Positions 2,992 to 58,682 of a stretch of 64,000 bases of DNA are shown one piece after another. The translations under genes were made by a program, and so were the position numbers. Numbering within the stretch: position 1 is the stretch's first letter; every line of letters begins with the position of its first letter. The notes under the pieces were generated by a model, which saw nothing but the letters and a program-made list of their open reading frames with translations, did no database searches and had not been told where the DNA came from. Source of the DNA: Apibacter raozihei (GTDB taxonomy: Bacteria > Bacteroidota > Bacteroidia > Flavobacteriales > Weeksellaceae); NCBI RefSeq assembly GCF_004014855.1, contig NZ_CP034930.1, positions 124,001 through 188,000 on the forward strand, written 5' to 3'.

Positions 2992-3009
2992 ATTTTTTTT
3001 GATTTTTAT

Positions 3010-5440: not shown

Positions 5441-5457
5441 TTTATTTAGAATAAATA
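5441..5457 (-). promoter_or_regulatory. Candidate iron-responsive operator upstream of the TonB/DUF4374 operon
   Basis: On the minus strand this reads TATTTATTCTAAATAAA. It matches 14 of 17 bases of the site at 57597-57613 upstream of the other TonB/DUF4374 operon. A weak -7 box (RC of caaaaata, 5430-5437) lies immediately downstream of it. Fur is the obvious candidate binder, but that is inference. Confidence 0.45.
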
Positions 5458-5651
5458 CAAATAAAAACTCATTTTATATAAACTCTTGTGTATAATTACC
5501 GAAACCAACTTATTTTAAACAATTAATAATCAAATTATTATCTCAAATATAAGCTAATAAAACGGACTGATAAATCTTAACTAAACATGTACTAATAATG
5601 AGCAAAAATTATGATCCTGACAGGATTAACTTATTCATTTTGGTTAATAAA

Positions 5652-19903: not shown

Positions 19904-20968
19904 TTATCTATTATTCCTTATTATCAACTCAATTTCTTTAGTTTTATCTGATTGCTTTTTATTTAAAAGGTTGTAATCCAAAATTTTTTGGGCACCTTTA
20001 AATTCTTTGACAGACAATGCATATTCAGCCAGATTATTTATTAAGGTTTCAGAAGGTATAAATTTATACCCCAGCTGCTCAGATAAATGATCGTAGGTTA
20101 TCTTAATCAATTCCGGATTTTCGGGTATTTTTTTTACAGGTAAAGTAATTCCTTGAAAATTAAACTTTAAAGCATCGTACATACCCGGTAAAATTACAGT
20201 CCCATGATCTTCCTCAGCATAATATTTCCATTTACTCCTTAATCCATTACTTTTATACAAACTATCTATAACATCATCACAAAACATCTGTATGGATTCA
20301 GAATGTTCACTTTTATCTTTTCCCTCATCTTTTGCCTTAGCAATAAATACATTTATTCCTTTATAATTAATTCCCTTTTCCATTGTTAAAGCTTCATTGA
20401 ATATTTTCCTGTTGTCCCACCAGATACTGGGATCTAAAGCTATATAGGAATTGAAAGAAACAGGGTTATGTATAAGTGTATAAAGCGTAAATAAACCTCC
20501 GAACGAATGACCTATCAAGGTATTATACCCGTTCGTTCGGTATTGGTTATTAATATACGGTCTGAGCTCTTTTATTAAAAAATTATGAAAATTCACTGCC
20601 CCACCACTATTTTCAAAGAAAACTTTTTCGTCTCTTTTCAAAAAAGACTTTGAAGGAGTAAGATCCCGTGTCCGATCTGTGTTAACTATACCGATAATTA
20701 TCGATTCGGGCATATAATTATACATACCTTTAGTAAATGCTTTTTGAATTGCTACTAAAGAATGAAAATTAGTTTCTCCATCAATTAAATATATAACCGG
20801 ATATTCAGAAGAACCTTCTTTATACTCGGGAGGAGTATATACCCAGAATTCTCTTTCTTCATTTAAAATTTGTGAATAAATCTTATATTTTTCTCCTATT
20901 ATAATTGGTTCCTGTGCATTTAATCCAAAAGAACTCAGGAAACAGATAAATATTACAAATGCTTTCAT
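19904..20968 (-). CDS. Secreted alpha/beta-hydrolase esterase (siderophore esterase-like)
   Basis: A 354-residue protein with a signal peptide (to LNAQ, about residue 19) and an esterase-D/Fes-type domain. The nucleophile elbow is GHSFGG (in YNTLIGHSFGGLFTLY), with DGETNFHS early and the late acid/His in the EEDHGTVILPGMYDAL block. The C-terminal 80 residues look like a helical extension. It follows a TonB siderophore receptor gene by 6 bases, so hydrolysis of an imported ferric siderophore in the periplasm, as for IroE, is the natural reading. Confidence 0.83.
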   Translation of the reverse strand: MKAFVIFICFLSSFGLNAQEPIIIGEKYKIYSQILNEEREFWVYTPPEYKEGSSEYPVIYLIDGETNFHSLVAIQKAFTKGMYNYMPESIIIGIVNTDRTRDLTPSKSFLKRDEKVFFENSGGAVNFHNFLIKELRPYINNQYRTNGYNTLIGHSFGGLFTLYTLIHNPVSFNSYIALDPSIWWDNRKIFNEALTMEKGINYKGINVFIAKAKDEGKDKSEHSESIQMFCDDVIDSLYKSNGLRSKWKYYAEEDHGTVILPGMYDALKFNFQGITLPVKKIPENPELIKITYDHLSEQLGYKFIPSETLINNLAEYALSVKEFKGAQKILDYNLLNKKQSDKTKEIELIIRNNR

Positions 20969-20974
20969 ACGTAT

Positions 20975-23305
20975 TTAAAAATTAAATGTTAAAGAGGCCA
21001 GAATTTGCTTAGGTTTCTGCGGTTGCCCCCAGTAACTGCTTGTCCAATATTTTTCATTTGTAAGATTATTTATCTTACAGGATAACTTGTAGCGCGCCTG
21101 ACTATAATAAATTCCTGCATCCCAGGTCGTATATCCTTTTAGTTCAAAAGTATTGGCATCATCCCAATAACTTTTACTTACAGAATTACCTCCTAGTCCT
21201 ACTCCCAGCCCTTTTAACCAACCATTTTCAAGAGTATACTCTGCCCAGAAATTAAATGAGTTATAAGGGGTATTATAAGGATGTTTACCTTCTATAGTCG
21301 AGATAGCTTTTATATATCTACTGTCGTTATATCCGTAACCTAAAAATATATTCCAGCCTGTTAAAGGTATTGCTTTGATCTCAATATCAATACCTTTACT
21401 TTTTCTGGTTCCATCCTGTACAGTAAATGTTTCCGAGCCGTCTGAAACAGTTCGCAGAGAATTCTTTACTTTAATATCATAATAACTTAGAGTTGATATA
21501 ATTCTATGATTCCAAATATCAAATTTTATTCCTGTTTCCCATTGATTTGCATGTTCCGGTTTATAGCTTTTCTTTTGTCCTGCGGGTGAACCTGTATCCA
21601 CCACATTATTAAACCCATCCATATAATTTCCAAAAAGAGATATTTGATTTTTTACCAACTCATACACAATTCCCAGCTTGGGAGACCAGGAAGTTTGATC
21701 CGTATCGTAATTATATGCCTCCATATTCAGATAATTCCCACCTTTGGCTTTATAATAATCCATGCGTAATGAAAACATAAAGCTTAATCTTTCCTTTATA
21801 TTTATCACATCAGAAACATACACACCCAAAGTATTATGTTTTCTAAAATACTCTGCAAAAGGAGTTGTTCCAGCAATCAATGAATTATATTTATCAACAG
21901 ATAAAGATACATCGGACTGATTAACATCAATAATATCATAAGTAATCTGAGACCTTTTATCTTCTGTTGTGTAATATAAATAATCAATACCTAGTAAAAG
22001 ATCATTTTTTAAATCTCCCCAATTAAATCTTCCTACAAAATTCTGCTGAAAATTATAACGGGTAAAAGTACTGGGGATCTGCATAATTTTTCTTTGTACA
22101 TGTTCATTATCCGTAAATGTAAGAAAGAGGTAATTTGCTTTGTTATCGGACTTGGAAAACGAAAAAAGACTCTGAGAATTCCAAACCTCAGATACTCTGT
22201 AATTGGCTTCAGCAAATGCATTGAAAACATCGGCCTCACTTACCAGATTCTTATCTGAAAGAGATCTTTCCGTATTATATTTCAATTTATTAAATGAGTT
22301 TACCGTAACTCCTTTTCCTTTCCCATAAAAGCTGGTATTACCTGATGTATGAAATAATTCAAAATCTAAATTAAGAATTAATCGATCTGTTACCTTATAC
22401 GTTAAACTGGGATCTATAGCCCAAGTGTTCCTACCGGAATAATCCTGAAAATAATCCTCTTTATGCACCAATGTGTTAATTCTAAAAAACAATGCGGAAT
22501 CTTTAATTGATGTATTTAAATCTGCTGTTAAACGGGATAATCCCCAGGAACCTGTTGTATAACTTATATTGCCTCCAAACTTCTGATATGGTTTTTTGGT
22601 AATTTTATTAATCATTCCCCCATAGGAAATAACAGAACCAAATAAAGTTCCGGAAGGCCCTTTAACTACATCTAAACGTTCTACGTTTATCATGTCAGTT
22701 AAAGTAGCTGAATTAGTTGACAAACCGTTACGTAAACCTATGTCTGTACTGAATCCTCTCATCATTACATAGAGACCTATTCCTCCAGATCCGGGTCCCT
22801 GTACACTATTGCTGGCTCCAGGCACATTTTTAAGCGCATCTTCCGTGCCTGTTATTACCTGATTACTCAGCATTTCTTTAGTTATTACTGTATATACCTG
22901 TGGATTCTCAATATTTTTCAAGGGTAATTTAGCCACATAATTACTATTAGCATTTAATTTATTTCCCTGAATAACGATTTCATTAATTTCAAGTTCTTTA
23001 TCTTCATTTAATTTTACATTAAAATAATAATTTTTATACTTATCTATACGAATCTGATCAATAAAAATAATTTCATTTTTATACCAGACCTGGATATCAT
23101 ACCTTCCTAAACCAGTCAGCTTAAGTTCAAATTTACCCTTTATGTCTGTTCGGACTCTAAACACTGAATCTTTAAGAAATCTAATTTCTGCATCTGCAAT
23201 TGGTAAGCCATTAGATGCTTCAACTTTTCCCTCTATAAAAGAAAAATGTTGACTATATAAAGTCAAAAAAAGAAAAAATGCTGTCAAGCTAAAGTATATT
23301 TTCAT
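20975..23305 (-). CDS. TonB-dependent siderophore receptor
   Basis: A 776-residue receptor with a signal peptide, a carboxypeptidase-like domain (about 20-95, EGKVEASNGLPIADAEIRF), a plug with VYTVITKEMLSNQVITG and GPSGTLFGS (the FhuA/FecA-type siderophore-receptor plug), and a C-terminal barrel ending LASLTFNF. It is not close to the XusA-like receptors in this window. It forms an operon with the downstream esterase. A Fur-like dyad lies upstream at 23342-23360. Confidence 0.9.
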   Translation of the reverse strand: MKIYFSLTAFFLFLTLYSQHFSFIEGKVEASNGLPIADAEIRFLKDSVFRVRTDIKGKFELKLTGLGRYDIQVWYKNEIIFIDQIRIDKYKNYYFNVKLNEDKELEINEIVIQGNKLNANSNYVAKLPLKNIENPQVYTVITKEMLSNQVITGTEDALKNVPGASNSVQGPGSGGIGLYVMMRGFSTDIGLRNGLSTNSATLTDMINVERLDVVKGPSGTLFGSVISYGGMINKITKKPYQKFGGNISYTTGSWGLSRLTADLNTSIKDSALFFRINTLVHKEDYFQDYSGRNTWAIDPSLTYKVTDRLILNLDFELFHTSGNTSFYGKGKGVTVNSFNKLKYNTERSLSDKNLVSEADVFNAFAEANYRVSEVWNSQSLFSFSKSDNKANYLFLTFTDNEHVQRKIMQIPSTFTRYNFQQNFVGRFNWGDLKNDLLLGIDYLYYTTEDKRSQITYDIIDVNQSDVSLSVDKYNSLIAGTTPFAEYFRKHNTLGVYVSDVINIKERLSFMFSLRMDYYKAKGGNYLNMEAYNYDTDQTSWSPKLGIVYELVKNQISLFGNYMDGFNNVVDTGSPAGQKKSYKPEHANQWETGIKFDIWNHRIISTLSYYDIKVKNSLRTVSDGSETFTVQDGTRKSKGIDIEIKAIPLTGWNIFLGYGYNDSRYIKAISTIEGKHPYNTPYNSFNFWAEYTLENGWLKGLGVGLGGNSVSKSYWDDANTFELKGYTTWDAGIYYSQARYKLSCKINNLTNEKYWTSSYWGQPQKPKQILASLTFNF

Positions 23306-45477: not shown

Positions 45478-46506
45478 TTATTCTGATTCGGGTATCAGCT
45501 TTGTATCAAATATTTCCAGCTGTGCATGAAAATGTTCCGACTTCAAGATTTCGCCCTTATCCGTTATCATCAGACAACTGTATTCCGGATACTGATTCAT
45601 CAACTTCATTCCTGATTCAGATCCCAAAACCATTAATGAAGTACTGAATCCGTTGGCCATTTCTGCATTGGGACCTATAACCGTAACACTCATAATTCCC
45701 CTGACCGGATAACCGGTGCGGGGATTAATGATATGAGAATATTTTTCACCTTTCAGTACCACATATTTTTCGTAAGATCCTGAGGTGGTTACACTCTCGT
45801 TTTGGAGAGAAAATGCTCCCATAATATCGGCCGGATCAAAAGGATTTATTACTCCTATTTTCCATTCTTTACCGGTTATCTGCTTCCCCCAGGCGCTTAT
45901 ATCTCCGGATGCGTTAATTATTCCGGCCGGCACATTTTCTGCTACCATCAATTCTTTTGCTTTATCTGCTGCATATCCTTTTCCTATTGAGCCAAAGCCA
46001 ATTTTCATTCCGGGTAGTTTTAAATAAATGGTAGAGTTAATACTATCCAGCTCTATATTTTTGTAGCCTATCTTTTTAATGGATTTCCTGATCTGTCCCC
46101 GGGTTGGAATTTTCTTCATTGAACCGTCAAATTTCCATACTTTGTCTAAAGCTGCAAAACTAATATCAAAAGCTCCACCGGTCATTTCAGATATATCTAA
46201 TGCCCTGCGGGTAAGCTGCCATACTTCAGGATCTACTTTAACCGGACGAATGCCTGCATTTTGATTTACCCGGGAAATCTGTGATTCAGGAATCCAGTCG
46301 GAAATTAATTGTTCTATGCGATCTATTTCTGCAACAACCTGGTCTATGTGTTTTTCTGCCGTGAGCGAATCTTCTGCTACAATAGTAAAGTCAAAACGAC
46401 ATCCCATAAGTGTTACAGCTCTGTTTCTCTGAACCTGTGCTCCTGCTACTAAAAACAATAAAGAAAAAACACCGATTAAACTTATTTTAATTTCATTTAT
46501 TCTCAT
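45478..46506 (-). CDS. apbE: FAD:protein FMN transferase ApbE
   Basis: A 342-residue exported enzyme (signal segment ISLIGVFSLLFLVAGAQ) that attaches FMN covalently to Thr/Ser of target proteins. Family motifs are GSIGKGYAAD (residues ~170-180), NASGDISAWG, and the Asp/His region YSHIINPRTGYPV. It lies 19 bases downstream of the PepSY-reductase gene. Its likely target is the DUF2271 protein two genes upstream, which has a TGAS site. This placement supports a flavin-based redox module. Confidence 0.92.
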   Translation of the reverse strand: MRINEIKISLIGVFSLLFLVAGAQVQRNRAVTLMGCRFDFTIVAEDSLTAEKHIDQVVAEIDRIEQLISDWIPESQISRVNQNAGIRPVKVDPEVWQLTRRALDISEMTGGAFDISFAALDKVWKFDGSMKKIPTRGQIRKSIKKIGYKNIELDSINSTIYLKLPGMKIGFGSIGKGYAADKAKELMVAENVPAGIINASGDISAWGKQITGKEWKIGVINPFDPADIMGAFSLQNESVTTSGSYEKYVVLKGEKYSHIINPRTGYPVRGIMSVTVIGPNAEMANGFSTSLMVLGSESGMKLMNQYPEYSCLMITDKGEILKSEHFHAQLEIFDTKLIPESE

Positions 46507-46525
46507 TCATTGGATTCTTTGGGTG

Positions 46526-48724
46526 TTAATAACAATCTGAAAGTATCTGCCCTTTATTCTTATAATCGATGATTCTTTTCGCATATTTTTCGAACACAAT
46601 TTCTTCTAAAACCGCTTCCACCTCTGCCTGCATCTGCAAAGCTCCACAAATCATAAGTATTCCGTCATTTTCCAGAAGATCTGCAAAAAATTCTGTATCT
46701 CTTCTCACTAAATCCATAACATACCGATGTTCCTGACTTCTGGAATAACAAAATGTATAATCAACTAATTGCTGATTTTTAACCTGCTCATCTAAAAAAA
46801 TTTTATAGCGACTGGTTATTTCAGTTTCCCTACGAAAACCGCAATAAAGAAAGGTTTCCGTTTTATGGGTATTCTGCTGTACCATTCCTAAAAACGGGGC
46901 TATTCCTGTTCCGTTGGCAATTAGTACAACCTTAGAAGCTTTATCAGGAAAGTGAAAGGAGGTATTAGGCATTACGCGTGCATTAAGTTCATCCCCGACC
47001 TTACGTTTAATTAAGAATTCCGACGCCAGTCCTCCGGGTAAATATTTTATGGAAAGCTGTATACGGTTATCGACTCTTGCGATGGAATAATACCTTTCTT
47101 TTTCATCATTGTCCGGATAAACTACTAATAAGTCTCCGGAAGTATATTTGAGATTCCCCGGATTAATTCTTAACATAAAAGTATTTTCAGAATCTTCAGG
47201 AGAAAAAATCTCATCCACTTTCATTTTTTTCAGTCCCTGAGGTACTTTTTTATAAAATTTGGAATCAGCATAAAGTTTCATCAGTGTCTGCTTGTTCCAT
47301 TCTTTTACCCATGCTGTAAACTCTTCGGGAGATTTATCATTTACCGTATGTATTTTCATAAACGGTTCTCCCCACGATTCTGCCCGTATATTAGTGTTTA
47401 CAACTTGTGCAAATCCGCAGTAATCTTTATAGGCTTTGGATCCGAATCCTACGACACAGTACTTTAATGGATGATTTTGTGGGTGTTTTTTCAGCAGCAG
47501 CTCAAATTTTGAAGCATTTGATGGTGCATCTCCCAGTCCGTAGGTAGAGGTGAAGATAACCAAATATTCAGCCTTCGGAAATTCTTGATACCGATTTAAT
47601 TCGGCAAGATAGGAATGCTGATTTTGAGCCAGCAACTGCTTATGCACTTGATGGGCAAACCAGAAAGTGCTACCGTTTTCGGAACCTACCAGGAGAATTA
47701 TCTTACTTTCTTTTGCAGAAAATTTATTTTTAAACTTAGGTACTCTTCTTTTCCACATAATGGTAAAGCCTGAATATATGAAAAACAGGATATAAAGAGA
47801 CGATATCATAAGTACAGCCGCCCACACGATATGGGTTCTTCCGGTATGTAAATCGAGACTTAGTTCTGTCCAGCGTTTTGTAAGTGGATAATCGGTCTGC
47901 GAAATGATAGATCCGTTGAACTGATTTACTTCAATTTCTTTATCTTTTAATTTGATGATATAAAAATCATCGGGTTCTTCGGAAAAAGGAAATTCTATTT
48001 TTTGTACTTCTGCAAGTTTTATTTGTTTAAACAGCGGAATATCTTTGCTGTTTATTTTAACCGTTTCTTCATTCTCCGCAGTTGGATTCTGTATCTTTTT
48101 ATTTTCTGTTTTCGGAAAAAAATTAAATCTTTCCATAGAAAGATAGGTACCTGTCACAGATATTATAATAATTGGTATAAGGAGCAACCTCCCAAATACG
48201 GCATGATAGTATTGTGAGAAAGAACTTTTTTTAATTTTGGAAAAGAAACGGGAAAGTTTTTTTTGTCTTTTAATTATAAGTATGCTTCCTGAAACAGCAA
48301 TAAGGGCCAGTAAAAATGAATTAATACCTATGATCCATCTACCGGTTTCATGTAAAAATAAAGAACGGTGAAAGGAAGTGACCCATTGTATAAAATCACT
48401 TTTTTTTTCGGTTTTTCCTATAATTTTGCCATCTAAGGGATTTATATATCCTTCTACATCATTACCTTCTTCATCCAAACCCTGTAATTTTATGTATGAG
48501 TTTTCAGTAATTTCCAACTCGGTTATTTCCAAATATTTATTCTGCAAAACAGGAAGCACCTGTGCCAGAGAAATATCTTTTAAATTATGAATACGATTGG
48601 GAGAGGTATTTTCTTTTATGGTATTAAAAGCGAGTATGGATCCCGTAATGGAAGCCATACTCAAAAATATGAAAGAAGTTATTGCCAATATTAAATGAGC
48701 ATATCTCCAAATTGAAAGGGTCAT
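46526..48724 (-). CDS. PepSY membrane protein fused to flavodoxin and NAD(P)H:flavin reductase (XusC-like)
   Basis: A 732-residue three-part protein. Residues 1 to about 335 are a PepSY-associated membrane region with four membrane segments (near 10-35, 135-160, 185-205, 305-330) and histidines that could bind haem. Residues 350-480 are a flavodoxin domain (VGSENGSTFWFAH, FTSTYGLGDAPSNA). Residues 515-732 are a CysJ-like FAD/NAD(P)H reductase (YYSIARV, ANGTGIAPFLG). Cytosolic NAD(P)H would reduce an acceptor outside the inner membrane. In Bacteroides the PepSY protein XusC belongs to the xusABC siderophore system. It is preceded by the DUF2271 gene with a 6-base gap. Confidence 0.88.
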   Translation of the reverse strand: MTLSIWRYAHLILAITSFIFLSMASITGSILAFNTIKENTSPNRIHNLKDISLAQVLPVLQNKYLEITELEITENSYIKLQGLDEEGNDVEGYINPLDGKIIGKTEKKSDFIQWVTSFHRSLFLHETGRWIIGINSFLLALIAVSGSILIIKRQKKLSRFFSKIKKSSFSQYYHAVFGRLLLIPIIIISVTGTYLSMERFNFFPKTENKKIQNPTAENEETVKINSKDIPLFKQIKLAEVQKIEFPFSEEPDDFYIIKLKDKEIEVNQFNGSIISQTDYPLTKRWTELSLDLHTGRTHIVWAAVLMISSLYILFFIYSGFTIMWKRRVPKFKNKFSAKESKIILLVGSENGSTFWFAHQVHKQLLAQNQHSYLAELNRYQEFPKAEYLVIFTSTYGLGDAPSNASKFELLLKKHPQNHPLKYCVVGFGSKAYKDYCGFAQVVNTNIRAESWGEPFMKIHTVNDKSPEEFTAWVKEWNKQTLMKLYADSKFYKKVPQGLKKMKVDEIFSPEDSENTFMLRINPGNLKYTSGDLLVVYPDNDEKERYYSIARVDNRIQLSIKYLPGGLASEFLIKRKVGDELNARVMPNTSFHFPDKASKVVLIANGTGIAPFLGMVQQNTHKTETFLYCGFRRETEITSRYKIFLDEQVKNQQLVDYTFCYSRSQEHRYVMDLVRRDTEFFADLLENDGILMICGALQMQAEVEAVLEEIVFEKYAKRIIDYKNKGQILSDCY

Positions 48725-48730
48725 TTTTTA

Positions 48731-49207
48731 TTAAATCTTACTTAAACGTATATAATTAATATATCCTGTACCGCTTAATTTACCTGACATGCCTTCGGTA
48801 GTTAAAGGAATTTCCAAATCTTTTGCATGATATTTCTGATCTTCCACTGCTGTTTCAAATCGTAGTTTATATCCTTTATTCATTTTAGAGTTTTCAATTT
48901 CCAGCGTGGTTACGCTTCTATCTCCTCCGGTTACAGAAGCTCCTGTTTTTGCATTTACTTCCTTTTTTTTAGAATAAAATTTGTACCATTCTTTCAGACT
49001 GTTATACCATCTCTTATCATCCCCCATTACATACAAGGTTTTTTCATACTGTCCTTTAGGGTTTATTAAGGATACAACTATATAAGCTCCTTCACCTATA
49101 TAATTATTCATTTGTAAGAGACATTTATATTTGGTTGTTTGTGCTGTTCCAAAAACTGATATCATAAGAAACAGACAAAATGCTATTCTTTTTAAGTTAT
49201 TTTTCAT
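48731..49207 (-). CDS. DUF2271 secreted protein with a probable covalent-FMN site
   Basis: A 158-residue protein with a signal peptide (to FGTAQ, about residue 23) and the DUF2271 pattern. Residues 85-91 read NAKTGAS, close to the flavinylation signal D-x-x-(S/T)-G-A-(T/S) recognised by ApbE, with Ser91 at the attachment position; the usual Asp is Asn here. A periplasmic flavoprotein taking electrons from the PepSY reductase next door is the natural inference. Gaps to both neighbours are 6 bases. Confidence 0.82.
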   Translation of the reverse strand: MKNNLKRIAFCLFLMISVFGTAQTTKYKCLLQMNNYIGEGAYIVVSLINPKGQYEKTLYVMGDDKRWYNSLKEWYKFYSKKKEVNAKTGASVTGGDRSVTTLEIENSKMNKGYKLRFETAVEDQKYHAKDLEIPLTTEGMSGKLSGTGYINYIRLSKI

Positions 49208-49213
49208 CTTTTT

Positions 49214-50683
49214 TTATTTAAGAAAATCTACAGATATTTTATTTTGAGTTAATACTTCGTTTTCTTTGGCCAGGTCGAAAGCGGTTTCTCCAAATTCGGT
49301 TTTGGCTGTTTTTTGAGCTCCTATGCTCACCAGATATTTTAAGATACTATCGTCTTTTGCAGTCATTGCAGCACGTTGCAAAGCAGTTATTCCTTCATCG
49401 TTTACCTGATTTACATTTGCGTTTAAATCAGCCAGTTTTTTTATAAGATTTAAATCCCCTTTTACAACTGCCAGATGATAAATCGTATTGCCATCATGCT
49501 GTTTTGCTGAAAAGTCTAATCCTTTTTCTTTAAGGAGATTTAATTTTGCATCGAAATCTTTATTTTGAGGATTGTATGACTGTACAAGGTAATAAGCCAA
49601 GCTATTTCCGTTGTTATCTACTAGTTTTATGTCTGCCCCTTTGCTAAGTAATAAGGCTACCATTTCAGCAGTGCTTGATTTTACGGCCTGCGCTAATGCA
49701 CTTTCTCCCTTACTATTAACTGCATTTATATTTTTAGTTAACGGTAAAAGTAACTCCGTATTTTGAACATCTTTACCTGAAGCACTATTCATAAAGGCTG
49801 TATTTCCGTTTTTATCGGTTTTACCTGCATCTACTCCTTTGCTTAAAAAGTAAGTCATTATTTCAGACTGTTTAGGTTTAGTTGCTAAAATATGAAGTAC
49901 TGTTTGTTGGTTTTCATTGGTAAGTGCAGGATTTATTTTTAATTCTTCTACGAGATACTGAAATACATCTAAGGTATTGGCTGATCTTCGGGTAGCTTCT
50001 GCTGCCATGAAAAGTGCCTGATTGGTATATTTTACACCTCGAGCCTTCAGTTTTTTCAGTAATTCAACATTTCCTTTTCTTGCTGCATAATCAAAGGCTG
50101 TTCCTCCTTTAGAATCAGTATCTGATAGTGATAATCCCTGAGTAATTAAAAAATCAGTCAGATGAAGATCTGTATCGTATGGAATAGCTAATAATAAAAG
50201 GTTAGTACCTTCTTTATATTTCATTTTAGGATCTAGTCCTGCTTTGAAAAACAGCTTATAAATTTCAATATCCGTTTGTCCTGCGTTAGCTGCAAATACC
50301 AATGGAGTAAGTCCGTGAGAGTCTTCCAGGTTTATATCGCTTTTTTTCTCAATCAGATATTTAATTAATTCAATATTTCCACGATATGCAGCCCAATGGA
50401 GGTATATACGATTGTCGTGGGTTAATTTGTTTACATCATTCCCTTTTTGGCTTAGTAGGTATTTGATGGTTTCCAGAGGAGCATCATTTAAAATTGCTAC
50501 GGAAACAGCATCAAATTTTCTATCATTAAATTCTACCGGATTATTCCCATTCTTAATTTCTGTTTCCACCACCTGTACTTCAGGTTTGTTTTTCCAGAAA
50601 TCATTATCTAACAGGGAATTATTTTTTTGAGCGCTCATCCATAAGGATGCCAGGCATAAGATCGTTACTACTATTTTTTTCAT
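49214..50683 (-). CDS. Secreted ankyrin-repeat protein
   Basis: A 489-residue protein with a signal peptide (to MSAQ, about residue 18) and about 12 ankyrin repeats (for example RIYLHWAAYRGNIELIKYL, GLTPLVFAANAGQTDIEIY and GITALQRAAM). It heads the operon that continues into DUF2271, PepSY-reductase and apbE. Exported ankyrin proteins usually act as binding scaffolds; the partner here is unknown, but the operon suggests an iron-reduction or siderophore component. Confidence 0.88.
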   Translation of the reverse strand: MKKIVVTILCLASLWMSAQKNNSLLDNDFWKNKPEVQVVETEIKNGNNPVEFNDRKFDAVSVAILNDAPLETIKYLLSQKGNDVNKLTHDNRIYLHWAAYRGNIELIKYLIEKKSDINLEDSHGLTPLVFAANAGQTDIEIYKLFFKAGLDPKMKYKEGTNLLLLAIPYDTDLHLTDFLITQGLSLSDTDSKGGTAFDYAARKGNVELLKKLKARGVKYTNQALFMAAEATRRSANTLDVFQYLVEELKINPALTNENQQTVLHILATKPKQSEIMTYFLSKGVDAGKTDKNGNTAFMNSASGKDVQNTELLLPLTKNINAVNSKGESALAQAVKSSTAEMVALLLSKGADIKLVDNNGNSLAYYLVQSYNPQNKDFDAKLNLLKEKGLDFSAKQHDGNTIYHLAVVKGDLNLIKKLADLNANVNQVNDEGITALQRAAMTAKDDSILKYLVSIGAQKTAKTEFGETAFDLAKENEVLTQNKISVDFLK

Positions 50684-50739
50684 TATTTTTTCTTTTAAAA
50701 AGTAAAATATAAAAGTATAAAATATTTATGAATATTTTT

Positions 50740-50756
50740 TATATAGACTAAATAAA
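50740..50756 (-). promoter_or_regulatory. Candidate shared iron-type operator upstream of the ankyrin operon
   Basis: TATATAGACTAAATAAA (plus-strand reading) differs at two positions from TGTTTAGACTAAATAAA at 57597-57613. It lies 57 bases upstream of the ankyrin start. Confidence 0.45.
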
Positions 50757-50884
50757 TATAAGGAAAGATTAAACTCATTCACTTCAAGGCAGATTCCTTG
50801 CTATATATTAAGCTAATACACTATAAATGAAATGGGTACAATTTTATTTCGTTTGAGTAGTAAGAACTTTTCATATTAAAATAA

Positions 50885-50921
50885 ACAAGCCAATACGTAA
50901 AATTAATACGTATTGGCTTGT
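50885..50921 (-). terminator. Terminator after the tandem secreted paralogues
   Basis: Perfect 15-bp stem ACAAGCCAATACGTA / TACGTATTGGCTTGT with a 7-base loop; on the minus strand it is followed by TTTATTTT. It separates the paralogue pair from the ankyrin operon. Confidence 0.8.
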
Positions 50922-50949
50922 TGCTTGTTATTTGTTTCTAAAAAAATGA

Positions 50950-51540
50950 TCAGGGCTCACCTAAAAATATGGAAATAACCTTGTTATTAGTAAAAAGTAT
51001 TCCAAACCCTATTTCATACCGAACATTATTATCATCTACCAGATTGTTGGAGGAAATATAACCTGTGTAATCTATATTTCTACTTCTCCCCTTCTCTTTT
51101 TTAATATCTGTATCAGTAAACCCTCCTATATAATTTTCCACCGTCTTTATTTTAGGCATTCCGGATCCTCTATCACGATAATATATTTTTGTTTGTATTT
51201 CATCTCCTATTCTGATTTGAAATTTGTTTTTTTTCCCGAAAGCCAGCGTATTATCTGATAAATCTATACTTGAAACTTTATTATTCAATATAAAGATTTT
51301 GTTTTTGTTATAGTAGTAAATTTTCCCATATTCCTCATTTATTTCAAAATAAAAATCTTCGATTTTGGTGGGTTTCCCTAAAACACGGGTTACTTTATCC
51401 ACAGTATCGTCGTAAGCAATCCCTTGAGACATTACTCCTGGTTTCATAACTATCATCTCAGATATTTTATACTGAGCACTTAAAATACCGCTTAGAAAAA
51501 GCAATCCAAACAAGAATGTTTTTTTAATTATTTTTTTCAT
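50950..51540 (-). CDS. Secreted protein of unknown function (second of a tandem pair)
   Basis: A 196-residue protein with a signal peptide (to ILSAQ, about residue 22). The segment YDDTVDKVTRVLGKPTKIEDFYF has the 'G/D-x-x-x-x-x-V-x-x-x-x-G-x-P' pattern of BamE/SmpA-like folds. It is a paralogue of the gene at 51576, sharing QYKISEM.VMKPG and AFGKKNKFQI. The role is unknown; it lies between the DUF4374 lipoproteins and the ankyrin operon. Confidence 0.75.
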   Translation of the reverse strand: MKKIIKKTFLFGLLFLSGILSAQYKISEMIVMKPGVMSQGIAYDDTVDKVTRVLGKPTKIEDFYFEINEEYGKIYYYNKNKIFILNNKVSSIDLSDNTLAFGKKNKFQIRIGDEIQTKIYYRDRGSGMPKIKTVENYIGGFTDTDIKKEKGRSRNIDYTGYISSNNLVDDNNVRYEIGFGILFTNNKVISIFLGEP

Positions 51541-51575
51541 TTTATTTTGATCCTACCTTTAATTAGCGGCAATCA

Positions 51576-52154
51576 TTATACTGGTTCACCTAAAAATATA
51601 GAAACCACTTTGTTTTCATTTAAAAGTATCTCAAATAACACAGTATCATATCTTTTATCATTATCATCCAGAAAGTATTCCGAAGAAATATAACTTGTAT
51701 AATTTACATCTCTACTTGTCCCCTCATCCTTTACAATATCTGTATCAATGAAATCTCCTATGCGTTCAACCTCTTTCTTTGATTTTGACTTTTTCTGTCC
51801 TTCATTTTGTATTTGATCGCCTATAGTTATTTGAAATTTATTTTTTTTTCCAAAAGCCAGGGAATTATCTGATATTTCAAAACACAAAACTTTCCCGTGC
51901 AGTATATATATTTTACTATTATTATAATAACAAATTTTACCATAGGTTTGTTCTATTCTATAGTAAACATTTTCTATTTTAACCGGCTTTCCTAAAACAC
52001 TGATTACTTTTTGCAATGTATCATCGTAAGAAATTCCTTTGGTCAAGATACCCGGTTTCATAACTACCATTTCTGATATTTTGTATTGAGCACTCAAATT
52101 ATTACTCGTTGCTATTACTCCTAAAAGGAAAATTATTTGAAATATCTTTTTCAT
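51576..52154 (-). CDS. Secreted protein of unknown function (first of a tandem pair)
   Basis: A 192-residue paralogue of the preceding gene on the same strand with a 35-base gap. The signal peptide ends NLSAQ. The conserved parts are QYKISEMVVMKPGILTKGISYDD and VVSIFLGEP at the C-terminus; the middle Lys/Glu loop diverges. A decayed third copy lies just upstream at 52370-52485. Confidence 0.75.
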   Translation of the reverse strand: MKKIFQIIFLLGVIATSNNLSAQYKISEMVVMKPGILTKGISYDDTLQKVISVLGKPVKIENVYYRIEQTYGKICYYNNSKIYILHGKVLCFEISDNSLAFGKKNKFQITIGDQIQNEGQKKSKSKKEVERIGDFIDTDIVKDEGTSRDVNYTSYISSEYFLDDNDKRYDTVLFEILLNENKVVSIFLGEPV

Positions 52155-52369
52155 TTTTTTATACTAAAAAGTTATAAACAAAATTAAAAAATATATAACA
52201 ACATATACTATATTGATGTAACAAATATAAAATAATATAAATAAAAATAAATTTTATATTTTATCTAATTGAACACCATTGAATTAGAAATTATTTAATT
52301 TTACTCTCTACTTATTATCCGATTCTCCTCTTATTAGGTTTTGTTTTACTTCACCTTCTACTTAGATTT

Positions 52370-52485
52370 AATCCCCCGGTTACTTTATTTACAGTATTGC
52401 TTTAAGGGACTCCTTTTTTAAATTCTTATGGGTTCATTATTATTAATAATGTGTACTGAGCATTTTAAATAATACTTTGAAAAAA
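52370..52485 (-). pseudogene. Decayed third copy of the tandem secreted-protein gene
   Basis: On the minus strand this DNA aligns with the 5' part of the gene at 50950-51540: TGCTCAGTA (the end of the signal peptide), then after a diverged stretch GATACTGTGGATAAAGTAACC in the intact gene matches AATACTGTAAATAAAGTAACC here. Several stops break the frame. The remainder of the gap 52155-52661 is AT-rich and holds a terminator at its end. Confidence 0.6.
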
Positions 52486-52606
52486 TTTATCCGAACAAAA
52501 AAGCTTTTTTATGATCTTTTAACTCTAATAAAAAAATCTTGGTTGTCTCTTAGGCTTTTACAAATGAGATATTAAACATCCAATATGTAAAATGTAATAA
52601 TAAAAA

Positions 52607-52634
52607 TAAAGCAGCCAAAAAATTGGCTGCTTTA
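52607..52634 (-). terminator. Terminator after the DUF4374 genes
   Basis: Perfect 12-bp stem TAAAGCAGCCAA / TTGGCTGCTTTA with a 4-base loop, downstream of the minus-strand DUF4374 gene and followed on that strand by TTTTTA. Confidence 0.85.
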
Positions 52635-52661
52635 TCCTTATCATATTTGATAAAATGTTAA

Positions 52662-53885
52662 CTATTTAAAATATGAAACGGCTCTGATTTGTTCTGTTTC
52701 ATTGTTAATCTCAAATCCTTTCACTGCATTACCTGATACAGGATTTATAACATATACGGCAGATTTACCACTTACCGGATTAATAGGTAAATACATTTTA
52801 CCTTCGTAAGCCAATGGCCACCCGTTACTGGATATTTCGTTATAGGCCGGAAGTCCTTCTACCCATTTAAATTCTTTGCTACTCATTTTTACAATTGCAT
52901 ATCGGGTTGCATTCGCGGTATTTCCTGTATTAGTAGTATCGTTATAAAATTCCAATAAATAATAATCATTACTAACAGGAAATACTTTTCTAAATTTATA
53001 TCCTCCTGAAGCAGTTTCAATATCAAAGAAATAGTTGGTATCAAAGCTATTTTCACCTTTATTAATTTTTAAAGCTCCTGCTTTTTTTGTTGTCGCATTG
53101 CCAGAACCTGCTCCTGAAAATACGTAAGTAAGTCCTGACGCTTCAGAAGCTATCTGAGAATACACAGCACCTCTCCACTGACCTCCTGAATAACTCATTC
53201 GCGCATCCTGTATTACAGATTTTATAGTAAAGTTATAATCCATAATCGCTACAACTGCTTCGTCTACTGATGCATATTTAAATGCTGCAACAATTTCATT
53301 GTTACCTCTGTCTGCAATTCCTGTAATAGTTGCTTTTTCTTCTCCTATTTTATGTGATTCAAAATCAATAGGCTTATCCATCATGGTAACATTGTCTCCG
53401 CTTCTTTCAAATAAATAACTGTTATCGGTACTGGAAACAGCATAAATAAAATTCCCAAAGCTTCCTGTTACTGTAAATCTTCCTGTTGGAAAAGGGCTTC
53501 CTTGTAATTCTACCATTTTATTATCGGTTCCGAACTTAAATGCTCTGGCTCCTGATTGTCCTTGCCCCAAATCGGATCCATTCGGATAAATAAATCCCAT
53601 CAGTGTTGAAGAGTTATTTACCACAATCTGTGTAAATGAACTGGTCGTTTTAACCGCGTTTGAATTTTCAACAATCGCATCGGTTCCTGAATCCAGTCCG
53701 TCAACTGTTAAAAAGTAAGTTCCTGTACCTAAACTTCCGGTTCCAGGTGCTGATGATATAACAAATTTACCTTTTACTTCCTGAGGAATAACTTCTGAAG
53801 TTGAGTCGTCATTACTACAAGATATGGATATGTAGCTAACTAAGGTACTTAGTAATACTTTTTGAATGAGTTTACATGTTTTCAT
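52662..53885 (-). CDS. DUF4374 lipoprotein (second copy)
   Basis: A 407-residue lipoprotein with lipobox SISC followed by SNDDSTSE, an acidic tail typical of surface-exported Bacteroidota lipoproteins. The mature part is a DUF4374 propeller-like domain. It is a tandem paralogue of the next gene upstream (shared SYSGGQWRGAVYSQ / SYSAGRWRSAMYSQ and SGGYRFRKVF / SGGYKFRKVF). It would act as a siderophore-binding partner of the receptor at 55160. Two copies may bind different ligands or forms. Confidence 0.83.
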   Translation of the reverse strand: MKTCKLIQKVLLSTLVSYISISCSNDDSTSEVIPQEVKGKFVISSAPGTGSLGTGTYFLTVDGLDSGTDAIVENSNAVKTTSSFTQIVVNNSSTLMGFIYPNGSDLGQGQSGARAFKFGTDNKMVELQGSPFPTGRFTVTGSFGNFIYAVSSTDNSYLFERSGDNVTMMDKPIDFESHKIGEEKATITGIADRGNNEIVAAFKYASVDEAVVAIMDYNFTIKSVIQDARMSYSGGQWRGAVYSQIASEASGLTYVFSGAGSGNATTKKAGALKINKGENSFDTNYFFDIETASGGYKFRKVFPVSNDYYLLEFYNDTTNTGNTANATRYAIVKMSSKEFKWVEGLPAYNEISSNGWPLAYEGKMYLPINPVSGKSAVYVINPVSGNAVKGFEINNETEQIRAVSYFK

Positions 53886-53913
53886 ACTATGTTTGTTTAA
53901 ATATATTGTGTTT

Positions 53914-55140
53914 TTATTGTTTTTTAAGTAATGATACTGCCGTAATTCCGCCGGATTCCACTACTAAACCTGATTTTGCAGTTGCTGAAACCGGATCTAT
54001 GACGTATACTGTTGGTTGTTCGTTCAGCGTAGTAACCGGTAAATATATTTTCCCTTCGTAGCTTAGAGGCCACCCTGTTGCAGATATTTGTTCTTTAGAT
54101 GGTAAGCCGGTTCTTACCCAGGTAAATTTTTTAGTATCCATTTTAAGTATAGCATATTGAGATGCAGGACTTATGTTTTCGTATTGTAATTCATTATAAA
54201 ATTCAAGAAGAAAGTAGTCTTCTGTTATATGGAACACTTTCCTGAAACGATATCCTCCTGAAGCTTGTTCTATATTATAATAATAGTCCTGATCAAAACC
54301 TGTAGCTCCTTTATTTATACGTAATGCCCCGGCAAGTTTCGTAGTGGTTGTTTCATAAGATCCTGAAAATACGTAGGTATTACCAGCATCGTCCATTGCC
54401 AATTGAGAATACATTGCCGAACGCCATCTTCCTGCAGAATAACTTATTCTATCATCAGTATATATTCTTTTTACATTAAGATCTGCATCTAATGCCAGAA
54501 CATATACTTTATCCGGATCTTCCGGAGTTACCAGAGCGGTTAGAAATTCACCGTTACCTGTGTCTACAATTCCACTGATAGTAGGATTGTAACCGTTCCC
54601 CGTTATGTTATCTGTATGCAGAGTTTTTTGGACAATAGACAAGTTAGTTCCGATTTGCTGAATAAAACTGAACACAGCACCGGTTGTTCCGTCCGCCAAT
54701 GCCTGAGCCCCTCTGGCTGCAATCATATAATCACCAAAGTTACCTACCGTATTATAATTGCTTACCTGAAACCCCATATCTCCTTCTCCTTTGAGTTTTT
54801 GGACTCTACCGTTTGAACCTAATACAAATGTGTATCCGGCATAGGTTCCCCCCTGACCGTAAATTAGTCCTGATAATGACTGGTATTTGTAATTTATAAA
54901 ATGTGTAAACACTCTTCCCACTTCTAATCCGTTTCCGGTGATAGTAGTATTACCTGAGTCCAACTGATCGGATGTTAACATATAAGTTGAGGTTCCCAAT
55001 GTAGCTGCTATAACAAATTTTTGTGTGAAATTCGGATCTTCGGTTTCGTCTGAAACCGAAGTGCTGTCATCACTTCCACAACTATACATCACTATAAGTC
55101 CTGACAGAAGGAATACTATTTTTTTTGTAAATACTTTCAT
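53914..55140 (-). CDS. DUF4374 lipoprotein (first copy, XusB-like)
   Basis: A 408-residue lipoprotein with lipobox VMYSC and acidic GSDDSTS after the Cys. The DUF4374 domain follows, with the same repeated blocks as its neighbour. It lies 19 bases downstream of the TonB receptor gene, the same order as the 3010/1639 pair and as xusA-xusB in Bacteroides. Ferric-siderophore capture at the cell surface is inferred. Confidence 0.85.
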   Translation of the reverse strand: MKVFTKKIVFLLSGLIVMYSCGSDDSTSVSDETEDPNFTQKFVIAATLGTSTYMLTSDQLDSGNTTITGNGLEVGRVFTHFINYKYQSLSGLIYGQGGTYAGYTFVLGSNGRVQKLKGEGDMGFQVSNYNTVGNFGDYMIAARGAQALADGTTGAVFSFIQQIGTNLSIVQKTLHTDNITGNGYNPTISGIVDTGNGEFLTALVTPEDPDKVYVLALDADLNVKRIYTDDRISYSAGRWRSAMYSQLAMDDAGNTYVFSGSYETTTTKLAGALRINKGATGFDQDYYYNIEQASGGYRFRKVFHITEDYFLLEFYNELQYENISPASQYAILKMDTKKFTWVRTGLPSKEQISATGWPLSYEGKIYLPVTTLNEQPTVYVIDPVSATAKSGLVVESGGITAVSLLKKQ

Positions 55141-55159
55141 TTTTTCTTTTACTTTATTA

Positions 55160-57544
55160 TTAATTGTTTTTGTTTGATTTATATAAAAAATATCGAAGTT
55201 TCAGGTAATAGGCTCTTCCTGGTTTTTGTAAGCTATAATTGTCATAGAGAAACTCATTAGTCAGATTTTTCAATTCTAGTGAAGCATTAAATTTCCCGTT
55301 TAAAAATGAATAATTAATCATAAAATCATGAGAAAGCTGTCCGGGTAAAGTATATTTAGAATTTTTCACCCCTAAACTCTCCCAGTTTAAATAAAACTTA
55401 CCTATAAAATTAAATGTATATCCAATACTTAAAATATTCCCTTTGTTACCTATATTATTTATATAATAAGCAACATCTGCATTTCCAAAAAAATAGGGCA
55501 CATTAGGTATCCTGTCGTTGTATGTTATGTCTTTTCTGTTACCGCTGGTCGACGAATAGCGTTCTTTGTTTCTAATATCCTGATAGGTAACATTTGCTCC
55601 CATCATAAATTTGTTTTGAAAATAAAATTTCAGTTCGGCATCTATTCCTACATTAGTTACTTTTCCATGATTTACATAACTGGCCGTCCCATATTGTTGT
55701 TCTATAATTCTGCGAATGTAATCATGGGTATCTCTGTAATATGCAGTCAAATCAACATAAAGTGTATTTTTACTTGAAAATTCTTTATTATAGGTTAGAC
55801 CTATATTGTAGTTCATTGAATTTTCGGCTTTTAAAATGGTATTTCCTGTCTCTAATACCTCATCTCCGAAAAGTTCATTATCGGTTGGAAGGCGATACGC
55901 TTTTTCTATTGAACCTTTCCACTGGTAATCTTTTAAAAACCAAGTAAAAGCAATTCCATACCCTGTGGTATTAAATTTTTCAATTGTTTCTATGTATTTT
56001 GTACTATTGGTAACTGTGGATATATTTTTAGGTCCTTTAACTTTCTGATAGTAATATTTTCCAAAAATATCTGCGTTCCATTTATTTTTATAGTTAAATT
56101 TGTATGAACCTCCTATTATGTTTTTTATGTTGGTTCTGCGCATGGTATCCTGCACTGAACCCGTTTCGATAATAGCTACCCGATCCGATTGTTTTCTCTC
56201 ATATGCTGAAATAACATTATTAACAGTAAAAGAGTGCCAATCACTAATTTTATACTGAAGGTTCGCAGTTGCAGATACATTTTGGTTGTAAAATCTTGCT
56301 AAGGAATATATGCCTTCTCCTTTTGTTTTTTTGGGTATATAGTTTCCAAGCCAATTGTATTGTCTGGCTACTGTATCAATGTTTTTGTTATAATTTTTAT
56401 TATAATTTGCGGTTAACCGGAAATTAAGATTTTTAATAACAAAATTCTTTTTTTCATAACTTAATGAAGGCATGATAGTGGTAGCCTCTCTTTTTTTCAT
56501 ACCATAAACTATCTCCATCAAATTCGCATTTTGTATATCTGCAAATTCCTGCCCCAAGGTTACTCCAATTAAAAATCTATCTGCCCATTGTTTATTTACC
56601 ACTCCTAATTTCACTATTGCTGTCTCATTGTGATACTTTCCATGAAAACGTTTAACCCAATATTTTTCAGAAGAGAATACATTGGTATCCAGATCCAACA
56701 CGGAAGTTTTCACTTTGTAATTATTATCTGAATAATTTTGAAAAGCATTTAACTGAAAAGTAAAACCAGAGGCAGATGTATATCCTAAGTTTACATTAGT
56801 CTTATAGGTATTAAAAGAGCCTGATGAATAGGACAGATCTAAATATGTACTGGATTTGTTAGCTGTTACTATATTTACAACCCCTCCGATAGCATCAGTT
56901 CCAAATTCAACAGGGACAACTCCTTTGTAAATTTCTATACGCTCAGCAATATTAACCGGAATATTATTGAGCTGAAAAGCGCTTCCAAAACCTTGCATGG
57001 GAACTCCATCCATAAATATCTTTACGTGTCTGCCGGTAAATCCATTTAAAGAAACTGATACATCAGAACCTAGTCCACCTGATTCTCTTATTTTTACTCC
57101 GGGGGCTTTTTCTAATAAATGAGCCAAATCTAAAGATGAATTATAAAACGATTTTGCATCTAACACGGTTACGCTAAAAGCGGATTCTTTTATTTTTTGT
57201 AATGCAGATTTCCCTTTTATGGTGATATTATCAATTTCTTTATATTTAACCGGTTTTAATTGAGTCTCAATTTTTTTTATCTCTCCTTTTTTAATGGTTA
57301 ATGATATTTCTGAGTCTTCATAATCTTTATCCATAAATTGTAAAATATAATTTCCTGAAGGAAGGTCTATTTTATAATATCCATGTTTATCTGTTTTAGT
57401 TGAAAAATCGGTATCCTTAATCCAGACAAACACATTCGAAAGCAATTTTTGTTCTGAGCTGACAATTCCTTCAACTCTTCCTGTCTGTGAATGTAAATAA
57501 CTTGAAATTACAAGTATAAAAAGGAGTGGTAAAAATATTTTCAT
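55160..57544 (-). CDS. TonB-dependent receptor (XusA-like)
   Basis: A 794-residue receptor with a signal peptide (to LHSQ, about residue 19), a carboxypeptidase-like domain (about 22-95), a plug (about 110-225; GLGSDVSVSLNGFTGRHVKI, IYKGVVPVEFGTDAIGGVVN) and a barrel ending KPGRAYYLKLRYFLYKSNKNN. The C-terminus runs some ten residues past the usual terminal aromatic. It is a paralogue of the receptor at 3010. It leads the iron island and is divergent from an AraC regulator. Confidence 0.9.
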   Translation of the reverse strand: MKIFLPLLFILVISSYLHSQTGRVEGIVSSEQKLLSNVFVWIKDTDFSTKTDKHGYYKIDLPSGNYILQFMDKDYEDSEISLTIKKGEIKKIETQLKPVKYKEIDNITIKGKSALQKIKESAFSVTVLDAKSFYNSSLDLAHLLEKAPGVKIRESGGLGSDVSVSLNGFTGRHVKIFMDGVPMQGFGSAFQLNNIPVNIAERIEIYKGVVPVEFGTDAIGGVVNIVTANKSSTYLDLSYSSGSFNTYKTNVNLGYTSASGFTFQLNAFQNYSDNNYKVKTSVLDLDTNVFSSEKYWVKRFHGKYHNETAIVKLGVVNKQWADRFLIGVTLGQEFADIQNANLMEIVYGMKKREATTIMPSLSYEKKNFVIKNLNFRLTANYNKNYNKNIDTVARQYNWLGNYIPKKTKGEGIYSLARFYNQNVSATANLQYKISDWHSFTVNNVISAYERKQSDRVAIIETGSVQDTMRRTNIKNIIGGSYKFNYKNKWNADIFGKYYYQKVKGPKNISTVTNSTKYIETIEKFNTTGYGIAFTWFLKDYQWKGSIEKAYRLPTDNELFGDEVLETGNTILKAENSMNYNIGLTYNKEFSSKNTLYVDLTAYYRDTHDYIRRIIEQQYGTASYVNHGKVTNVGIDAELKFYFQNKFMMGANVTYQDIRNKERYSSTSGNRKDITYNDRIPNVPYFFGNADVAYYINNIGNKGNILSIGYTFNFIGKFYLNWESLGVKNSKYTLPGQLSHDFMINYSFLNGKFNASLELKNLTNEFLYDNYSLQKPGRAYYLKLRYFLYKSNKNN

Positions 57545-57596
57545 TTAAGAACTATTATTTCTTATTTATTTAATTTATAAATTTGTGTTTAATTTT

Positions 57597-57613
57597 TGTT
57601 TAGACTAAATAAA
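57597..57613 (-). promoter_or_regulatory. Candidate iron-type operator upstream of the XusA-like receptor
   Basis: TGTTTAGACTAAATAAA (plus-strand reading), 53 bases upstream of the receptor start. A -7 box TACTTTTG (57623-57630, minus strand) lies just upstream of it, so a bound protein would sit at the transcription start. It matches the sites at 50740 and 5441. Confidence 0.5.
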
Positions 57614-57689: not shown

Positions 57690-58682
57690 ATGCGTATTTT
57701 TACGGAAATAAATGGAACCCCTTCTTTAGATATAAAAATTAAGGATGATATGGATATTCACTCACCTATAATTAAGGAACAAAAAAAGTTTTCTAATGAA
57801 TGGGTTAAGGGTGAACAGGAACTTATTTATACTAATGGGTTGTGCATTCTTTATCACAAATTCACTGTAATTAAAAATTTTATTAATTTTTTCTCAATTG
57901 AAAAAGAATATATTCAGCTGTCTCTATTATTTAATGGAAATTCGCAAGTTCTTAAAAAAGAAAATAAATTTATAAAAGATATTAAAGCAGGTGTTTTGCA
58001 GCTTGCTTATCAAGAAAAAAATAACATAAAAGTACGAGTTTCCAACGATTCAATCACAATGAATTATATACGCATATTTATTTCTAAAGAATATTTTCTT
58101 GTGCTTTTAAAAAATGAGATATGGTTTACTGAAAGTACTTTACATAAAAAAATATCAGATAGTGAATACATAAATTTTGGTGAAATTATTCTACCTGTAA
58201 ACTTTTCAATATTAAATATTTTTAGTGAAATAATTAACAATTCTAATAGCGGAGTATTAGGTCATAGTTATTATCATCTAAAACTTAAAGAGCTTATACT
58301 CATGATTTTTATTAATTTTTCAGCTAAATTACAAACCACTCAAAATATAAAGCTTATAGAAATTGAAAAAATTGAGATGGCTAAGGCTTATCTAAATACA
58401 CATTATGAAGCTCCTCCTACCATTAGACAACTTTCCAGAATAGTTCATTTAAATGAGCTAAAGCTTAAAACAAGCTTTAAATCTTTATACAAATACACTA
58501 TTCACAACTATATTATCAAATTACGTATGGAACAGGCAAATGTATTACTTTTTCAAGGGTACCCTGTCAACGAAATAGCGCTTACCATAGGTTACAAAAG
58601 TACCTCACATTTTATTGCATCTTTTAAAAAATTTTACGGAAAAACTCCCAAACAGTTTATTAATTCTTCAATCTCAAATTAA
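57690..58682 (+). CDS. AraC-family transcriptional regulator
   Basis: A 330-residue protein with a C-terminal double helix-turn-helix (about 225-325; FQGYPVNEIALTIGYKSTSHFIASFKKFYGKTPKQF) and an unassigned N-terminal sensor of about 210 residues. It resembles PchR-type regulators, which sense ferric siderophores and switch on the matching receptor. It is divergent from the XusA-like receptor gene, 145 bases away, so control of that operon is likely. Confidence 0.85.
   Translation: MRIFTEINGTPSLDIKIKDDMDIHSPIIKEQKKFSNEWVKGEQELIYTNGLCILYHKFTVIKNFINFFSIEKEYIQLSLLFNGNSQVLKKENKFIKDIKAGVLQLAYQEKNNIKVRVSNDSITMNYIRIFISKEYFLVLLKNEIWFTESTLHKKISDSEYINFGEIILPVNFSILNIFSEIINNSNSGVLGHSYYHLKLKELILMIFINFSAKLQTTQNIKLIEIEKIEMAKAYLNTHYEAPPTIRQLSRIVHLNELKLKTSFKSLYKYTIHNYIIKLRMEQANVLLFQGYPVNEIALTIGYKSTSHFIASFKKFYGKTPKQFINSSISN

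Follow-up and report, generated by a model that had tools for sequence, protein, structure and literature searches.

What is a siderophore-capture locus of the Xus type doing next to a flavin-dependent electron-transfer chain, and do the two make up one system? The question is raised by an island at positions 45478-57544 of a 64,000-nucleotide stretch of the Apibacter raozihei genome (contig NZ_CP034930.1, positions 124,001 to 188,000; hereafter the window), the genome itself being one contig of 3.29 Mb. The initial annotation of this DNA had described the island as a single complete capture-import-reduction set and had counted its ankyrin protein as part of a special combination. We found instead that the island consists of two units, each behind its own iron-box-like palindrome, and that the secreted ankyrin protein is a near-invariant core partner of the DUF2271 cassette, not an extra.

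The inventory itself held up: the nine genes are present in the order first given, from TonB receptor to ApbE and all on the minus strand, the DUF2271 protein has a TGAS motif with Ser91, an ApbE gene lies close by, and Pfam together with a XusB-fold model confirmed that Xus-type capture genes stand beside a flavinylation-type reductase. To these a divergent AraC regulator, a terminator-like hairpin and the palindrome had to be added. The features are, in window coordinates:

57690..58682, plus strand: AraC-family regulator, divergent from the TonB gene (Pfam HTH_18, 7.9e-18)
57595..57613, no strand assigned: iron-box-like palindrome 5' of the TonB receptor (1 mismatch to TTTATTTAGNCTAAATAAA)
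55160..57544, minus strand: TonB-dependent receptor in the XusA position (Pfam barrel 1.9e-20, Plug 4.3e-19)
53914..55140, minus strand: DUF4374 lipoprotein 1, XusB-type beta-propeller, 408 amino acids (Pfam 8e-61)
52662..53885, minus strand: DUF4374 lipoprotein 2, 407 amino acids (Pfam 3e-41; about 40% identity to lipoprotein 1)
52597..52644, minus strand: terminator-like hairpin 3' of the second DUF4374 gene (20 pairs counted)
51576..52154, minus strand: small secreted paralogue 1 (no Pfam or NCBIfam family match)
50950..51540, minus strand: small secreted paralogue 2 (no Pfam or NCBIfam family match)
50738..50756, no strand assigned: iron-box-like palindrome 5' of the ankyrin gene (1 mismatch to TTTATTTAGNCTAAATAAA)
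49214..50683, minus strand: secreted ankyrin-repeat protein, 489 amino acids, core cassette member (Pfam 2.1e-44)
48731..49207, minus strand: DUF2271 periplasmic protein, flavinylation motif TGAS, Ser91 (Pfam 5.2e-37)
46526..48724, minus strand: fusion of PepSY_TM, flavodoxin and ferredoxin-reductase (FNR) domains (Pfam PepSY_TM 4.5e-37, flavodoxin 1.6e-12, NAD-binding 3.1e-8)
45478..46506, minus strand: ApbE, flavin adenine dinucleotide:protein flavin mononucleotide (FMN) transferase, with signal peptide (Pfam 1e-82)

The hairpin at 52644-52597 and the palindrome at 50738-50756 together split the island in two. Unit 1 is a front end, made of the TonB receptor and the two XusB-type DUF4374 lipoproteins, with the divergent AraC gene on one side and the terminator at its end; unit 2 is the reductase cassette, in the order ankyrin, DUF2271, PepSY/flavodoxin/FNR fusion and ApbE. 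Terminator scanning gave a count near chance (8 found, 7.0 expected), so we relied upon the sole strong hairpin, and a promoter scan was uninformative (59 found, 58.7 expected). Hairpins are visible in the sequence of the same gap in three related loci, L096, L103 and L108, in which the gap between the units measures 139-140 bases as against 1,978 in the window. The two small secreted paralogues lie in that gap, and this position together with their distribution led us to reject the pair as members of the system: the pair was not found in the 8 other genomes of the genus that were sampled, and a search of 296 genomes of the family with the second paralogue recovered the pair in its own genome only, besides one 37% relative in genome G099 and a weak, incomplete hit in G118.

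How general is the association of ankyrin and DUF2271? DUF2271 searches gave 56 matches in the 296 family genomes, one of them weak, and 33 above the cut-off, own genome included, in 395 genomes of the phylum; 88 stretches and the window made up a survey of 89, in which genes were called by profiles grown from the window proteins. A standalone DUF2271, as defined by profile, was present in 83 of the 89, the count excluding a weak match (L119), a divergent protein (L152) and four ApbE-DUF2271 fusions (L139, L141, L148 and L151); L145, whose contig begins at DUF2271, is among the 83 but was left out of the adjacency count. The ankyrin gene lay directly upstream of DUF2271 on the same strand in 80 of 81 standalone Bacteroidota loci with a visible upstream gene, and one further locus (L083, in genome G034), settled by DUF2271 and ankyrin searches, raised this adjacency to 81/82. 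The sole exception, L144, encodes a DUF2271 protein without the TGAS motif and without a PepSY neighbour. In the reverse test, an ankyrin profile at an expectation value (E) of 1e-60 matched 55 of the 296 family genomes, and these coincide exactly with the genomes in which DUF2271 gave a clear match, the profile being partly built from these genomes and at most five candidates being scored per genome. A second set of named genomes, the best 80 of 578 relatives, nearly all Flavobacterium and partly overlapping the survey in genomes, had the ankyrin upstream of DUF2271 in 80/80 loci. Among 97 plasmid records with DUF2271, a Spirosoma record alone contained the ankyrin when a match at E 1e-15 along the greater part of the protein was required, and a Thermus plasmid from the same records had an ankyrin 24% identical. 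For five Pseudomonadota plasmid loci, a gene table that declares itself incomplete lists no ankyrin; ahead of DUF2271, three of these loci encode a small PepSY protein and one encodes a small protein without a name, while the fifth has no gene there. The structure model of the window ankyrin reached a predicted local distance difference test score of 92.7, and its matches in the PDB were generic ankyrins and designed repeats only.

The remaining cassette proteins have the features of an electron-transfer chain. The flavinylation motif [ST]GA[ST] was present in 80 of the 83 surveyed standalone DUF2271 proteins. In the PepSY fusion, His10, His119, His174 and His293 are invariant in 81/81 sequences and are residues that we take to be haem ligands, and the cytosolic part is similar to P450 and sulfite reductase flavoproteins. 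ApbE residue 285, presumably a Mg-binding position, is Asn in 72/73 cassette sequences and Asp in the three aligned solved ApbE structures. We found one ApbE and one DUF2271 in the own genome, whereas FMN_bind and NqrB/RnfD domains were sought and not found; DUF2271 is thus the sole recognised ApbE client among those sought, which did not include DUF3570 or further substrates on record. FeoA and FeoB are encoded elsewhere in the genome.

Are the two units under common control? With up to 3 mismatches, TTTATTTAGNCTAAATAAA occurs at 3 sites in the window against 0.53 expected, a count matched by two of 100 shuffles. One site precedes the island receptor gene, one the ankyrin gene and one a second receptor gene at 3010-5415. 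The genome as a whole has 10 sites with up to 2 mismatches, compared with 2 for the reversed pattern, and seven of the 10 stand immediately 5' of the island receptor, the ankyrin gene, the second receptor, feoAB and three further genes, namely a receptor followed by a PepSY gene, a receptor of 804 amino acids and a Plug-domain protein of 917 amino acids. The palindrome is kept before the ankyrin gene in L087, L096, L103 and L108. Across the surveyed loci it lies upstream of 37/79 ankyrin genes, 20/37 receptors and 2/587 other genes, and in the named loci upstream of 59/76, 48/53 and 3/295, respectively; it also precedes the ankyrin gene in 26 of the 52 cassettes that have no front end. The box shares the half-sites ATTTAG and CTAAAT with the Fur box of Riemerella anatipestifer, which it also resembles in its short distance to the start codon, and R. 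anatipestifer Fur is reported to bind promoters with that box in gel shifts (PMC5609570, PMC10986502). These patterns are sequence signs pointing to iron control of both units. The second receptor belongs to a receptor-lipoprotein pair at 1639-5415 on the minus strand (receptor 3010-5415, box 5441-5459). Its lipoprotein of 450 amino acids (1639-2991) has no Pfam match, and the only PDB match of its family is B. fragilis XusB, a ferrichrome binder (5.3e-6); at 15 loci from other genera, members of this family also neighbour the ankyrin cassette.

We then considered what the front end might capture and how closely it is tied to the cassette. The island receptor adjoins the DUF4374 lipoprotein genes in a Xus-type arrangement, and its best NCBIfam equivalog is MxcH, a match below the cut-off of that model (421.9 of 925 bits). 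For the DUF4374 protein, XusB structures were the top matches of the structure model, ahead of all else, consistently with a XusB beta-propeller fold. In the two translations the lipoprotein Cys is followed by GSDD and SNDD, a possible signal for surface export. Both copies are of the short type, with no hook-sized insert, and retain an Arg aligned to Arg167 of Bacteroides thetaiotaomicron (B. theta) XusB. As regards the ligand, the lipoproteins fall between the enterobactin and ferrichrome types, while the receptor is like the myxochelin receptor, below cut-off. Both copies, and an AraC gene in the same divergent position, recur in L096, L103 and L108.

The comparison with XusB structures (PDB 9gbc, 9gcy, 9hq1 and 8gex) gave an observation of its own. 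Relative to both the window DUF4374 protein (53914-55140) and B. viscericola XusB, B. theta XusB appears circularly permuted, profile positions 209-408 aligning on 135-347 and 38-157 on 350-460; the structural alignment with XusB was limited to model residues 149-408 on 36-350. The main text of the XusB paper has no word starting with "permut". Elsewhere in the window, a TonB receptor gene (20975-23305, minus strand) is directly followed by a putative esterase gene (19904-20968, minus strand), and the XusB paper reports a periplasmic esterase in the P. distasonis Xus operon.

Of 80 cassettes, 28 had a window-like receptor or XusB-like lipoprotein within the stretch retrieved, TonB calls resting on likeness to the window receptor, so that other receptor types may escape. 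The co-occurrence in Bacteroidota that the initial annotation proposed to survey was thus borne out for the reductase half, which recurs with the ankyrin, and not for the front end, which is optional. The 28 front ends stood upstream on the same strand (13), downstream on the same strand (7), upstream on the opposite strand (6) or downstream on the opposite strand (2), with at least 17 changes of presence and absence on a quick tree of the ankyrin; in the named loci, 47/80 had a window-like receptor within 6 kilobases. Pfam DUF4374 scored above cut-off in 12 of the 296 family genomes, and 50 of the 55 cassette genomes had none. We also tried, and rejected, the idea that the cassette is generally accompanied by DUF4374: an iterated profile called it at 19/83 loci, but by alignment the Pfam type is confined to four (the window, L096, L103 and L108) and the other 15 hold a sister family, related to DUF4374 by profile comparison (97.2%). 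All eight of the longer profile-called proteins submitted to Pfam lacked a DUF4374 match. In L087, a locus of the same genus, short pieces matching the ends of DUF4374 and AraC stand at about 11850-12149 before an intact, box-bearing cassette, and no matching front-end receptor was found where these remnants lie upstream of the ankyrin gene; this pattern indicates that the front end was lost and the cassette retained.

Taken together, we consider it probable that the island captures ferric siderophores and reduces their iron in the periplasm through FMN-carrying DUF2271, with the ankyrin as scaffold, by means of two iron-controlled units in series. Under iron starvation a Fur-like repressor would leave the palindromes and both units would be switched on. 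The two DUF4374 surface lipoproteins would then catch a ferric siderophore and pass it to the TonB receptor, as the XusB fold and the gene order suggest, with the AraC protein probably acting as a ligand sensor. Electrons from reduced nicotinamide cofactors (NAD(P)H) would flow through the FNR and flavodoxin domains to the membrane region that carries the four invariant histidines and, to judge by what is known of these families, from there to the FMN that DUF2271 would hold at Ser91, and finally to Fe(III) in the periplasm; Fe(II) would enter through FeoAB. To judge by the genomic linkage, the most likely task of the ankyrin solenoid is to bind DUF2271 or its partner, so keeping the chain assembled. 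In many Bacteroidota the cassette occurs by itself, and the receptors that serve as its front end vary. A stronger form of this proposal can be advanced tentatively, with the balance leaning against it: that a flavin-based iron reductase of the periplasm has in the ankyrin, of about 14 repeats, a fourth subunit that is obligate and specific to Bacteroidota, and that the cassette is an interchangeable module repeatedly joined by several kinds of receptor. As such a subunit, the solenoid would dock FMN-DUF2271 and the PepSY reductase, or bridge the two towards the outer-membrane receptor, and so give a fixed electron path.

Several observations weigh against capture coupled to reduction with a scaffolding ankyrin. 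Three of the 83 DUF2271 proteins lack [ST]GA[ST], two of these beside an ankyrin and a PepSY gene, and the cassette ApbE, with Asn at the usual Asp position, might differ in activity. Neither a fusion nor a structure joins ankyrin physically to DUF2271, and no such ankyrin was found at the loci of the four ApbE-DUF2271 fusions or of the divergent DUF2271 in L152. On the regulatory side, three of the 10 genomic boxes fall inside or ahead of genes with no obvious link to iron, and the half-sites are 1 base pair apart in the window box compared with 7 in the R. anatipestifer consensus, for which reason Fur as the binder is inferred. Finally, 52 of the 80 cassettes have no window-like TonB or XusB-like gene in the fetched stretch, and a clear DUF2271 is missing from seven of the 12 family genomes in which Pfam DUF4374 was detected; the cassette and the front end are thus not bound to each other. 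The four fusion loci are a separate architecture, found in other families of the class near short PepSY-like genes.

The best-surviving alternative, quite plausible although short of an even chance, is that the cassette is a general periplasmic reductase of ferric iron, or of another metal or thiols, and that its Xus-like neighbours are incidental. The many cassettes without a front end by these profiles argue for it, as do L087, where an intact cassette with its box is accompanied by DUF4374 and AraC remnants only, and the Pseudomonadota plasmid relatives, which stand beside metal ATPases, VIT1-type genes and two-component systems. In contrast, the four neighbour arrangements and the number of presence/absence changes suggest repeated association, and the same rare palindrome lies before both units. 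An unlikely explanation is that the ankyrin serves maturation, holding DUF2271 for ApbE or protecting it, instead of organising electron transfer; its strict adjacency to DUF2271 would fit this role, and an ApbE with an unusual Asn might need help, but a Pseudomonadota DUF2271 is reported to be flavinylated by co-expressed ApbE alone (PMC8238504). That the palindrome is bound by a different regulator, linked to iron or to receptors, the shared control being real but not iron repression, appears quite improbable: the spacing differs from the R. anatipestifer Fur box and further iron regulators exist in Bacteroidota, such as MliR in Bizionia (PMC9478572), but the palindrome precedes feoAB and several receptors of the genome and has the half-sites of the Fur box.

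Much of what we propose for coupled capture and reduction has precedents. DUF2271 is an established ApbE substrate, and PepSY-like flavinylation clusters, described as repressed by Fur and proposed to reduce iron, combine DUF2271 bearing [S/T]GA[S/T], a PepSY-like membrane protein and ApbE, as does the window (PMC8238504). Among them, 231 clusters contain a TonB gene, and XusC is itself a PepSY protein (PMC13142918), so that Xus and flavinylated proteins are not known only separately, as the initial annotation had it. A Caulobacter PepSY/DUF2271 locus is under Fur control and required in the presence of the chelator ethylenediaminetetraacetic acid (PMC12004947), and VciB of Vibrio cholerae, a PepSY-like protein, is reported as supporting iron reduction (cited in PMC8238504). 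Unlike the PepSY-like clusters of PMC8238504, the window has a membrane protein fused to flavodoxin and FNR domains; moreover, DUF4198 is a frequent secreted partner in those clusters, whereas in Bacteroidota a secreted ankyrin occupies the slot before DUF2271. XusABC of Bacteroides likewise combines a TonB receptor, a XusB-fold DUF4374 surface lipoprotein and a nearby PepSY protein (PMC13142918). The window differs from it in having two short-type DUF4374 paralogues (408 and 407 amino acids); moreover, its PepSY protein is fused to reductase domains and belongs to a separate unit, which follows a terminator and also encodes DUF2271, ApbE and the ankyrin. The word ankyrin was not found in the main text of PMC8238504, the supplement being outside the search. 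Among the papers searched, none paired ankyrin with DUF2271, or with PepSY and TonB-dependent proteins, although the supplementary tables of that paper might list ankyrin neighbours; reports on ankyrin and ApbE, as judged by titles and abstract openings, had no bearing on the cassette. The DUF2271-PepSY-ApbE clusters, their links to iron and TonB, Fur control and Xus are thus already in print, and the new part is the conserved ankyrin.

These results bear on how Bacteroidota release iron from imported siderophores, which is unsettled: the current Xus model ends at an inner-membrane reductase and a still unknown Fe(II) importer (PMC13142918). A conserved, box-bearing cassette can now be named, the capture genes are shown to be its optional, movable front end, and a regulatory signal common to feoAB allows the iron genes of a poorly studied group to be listed.

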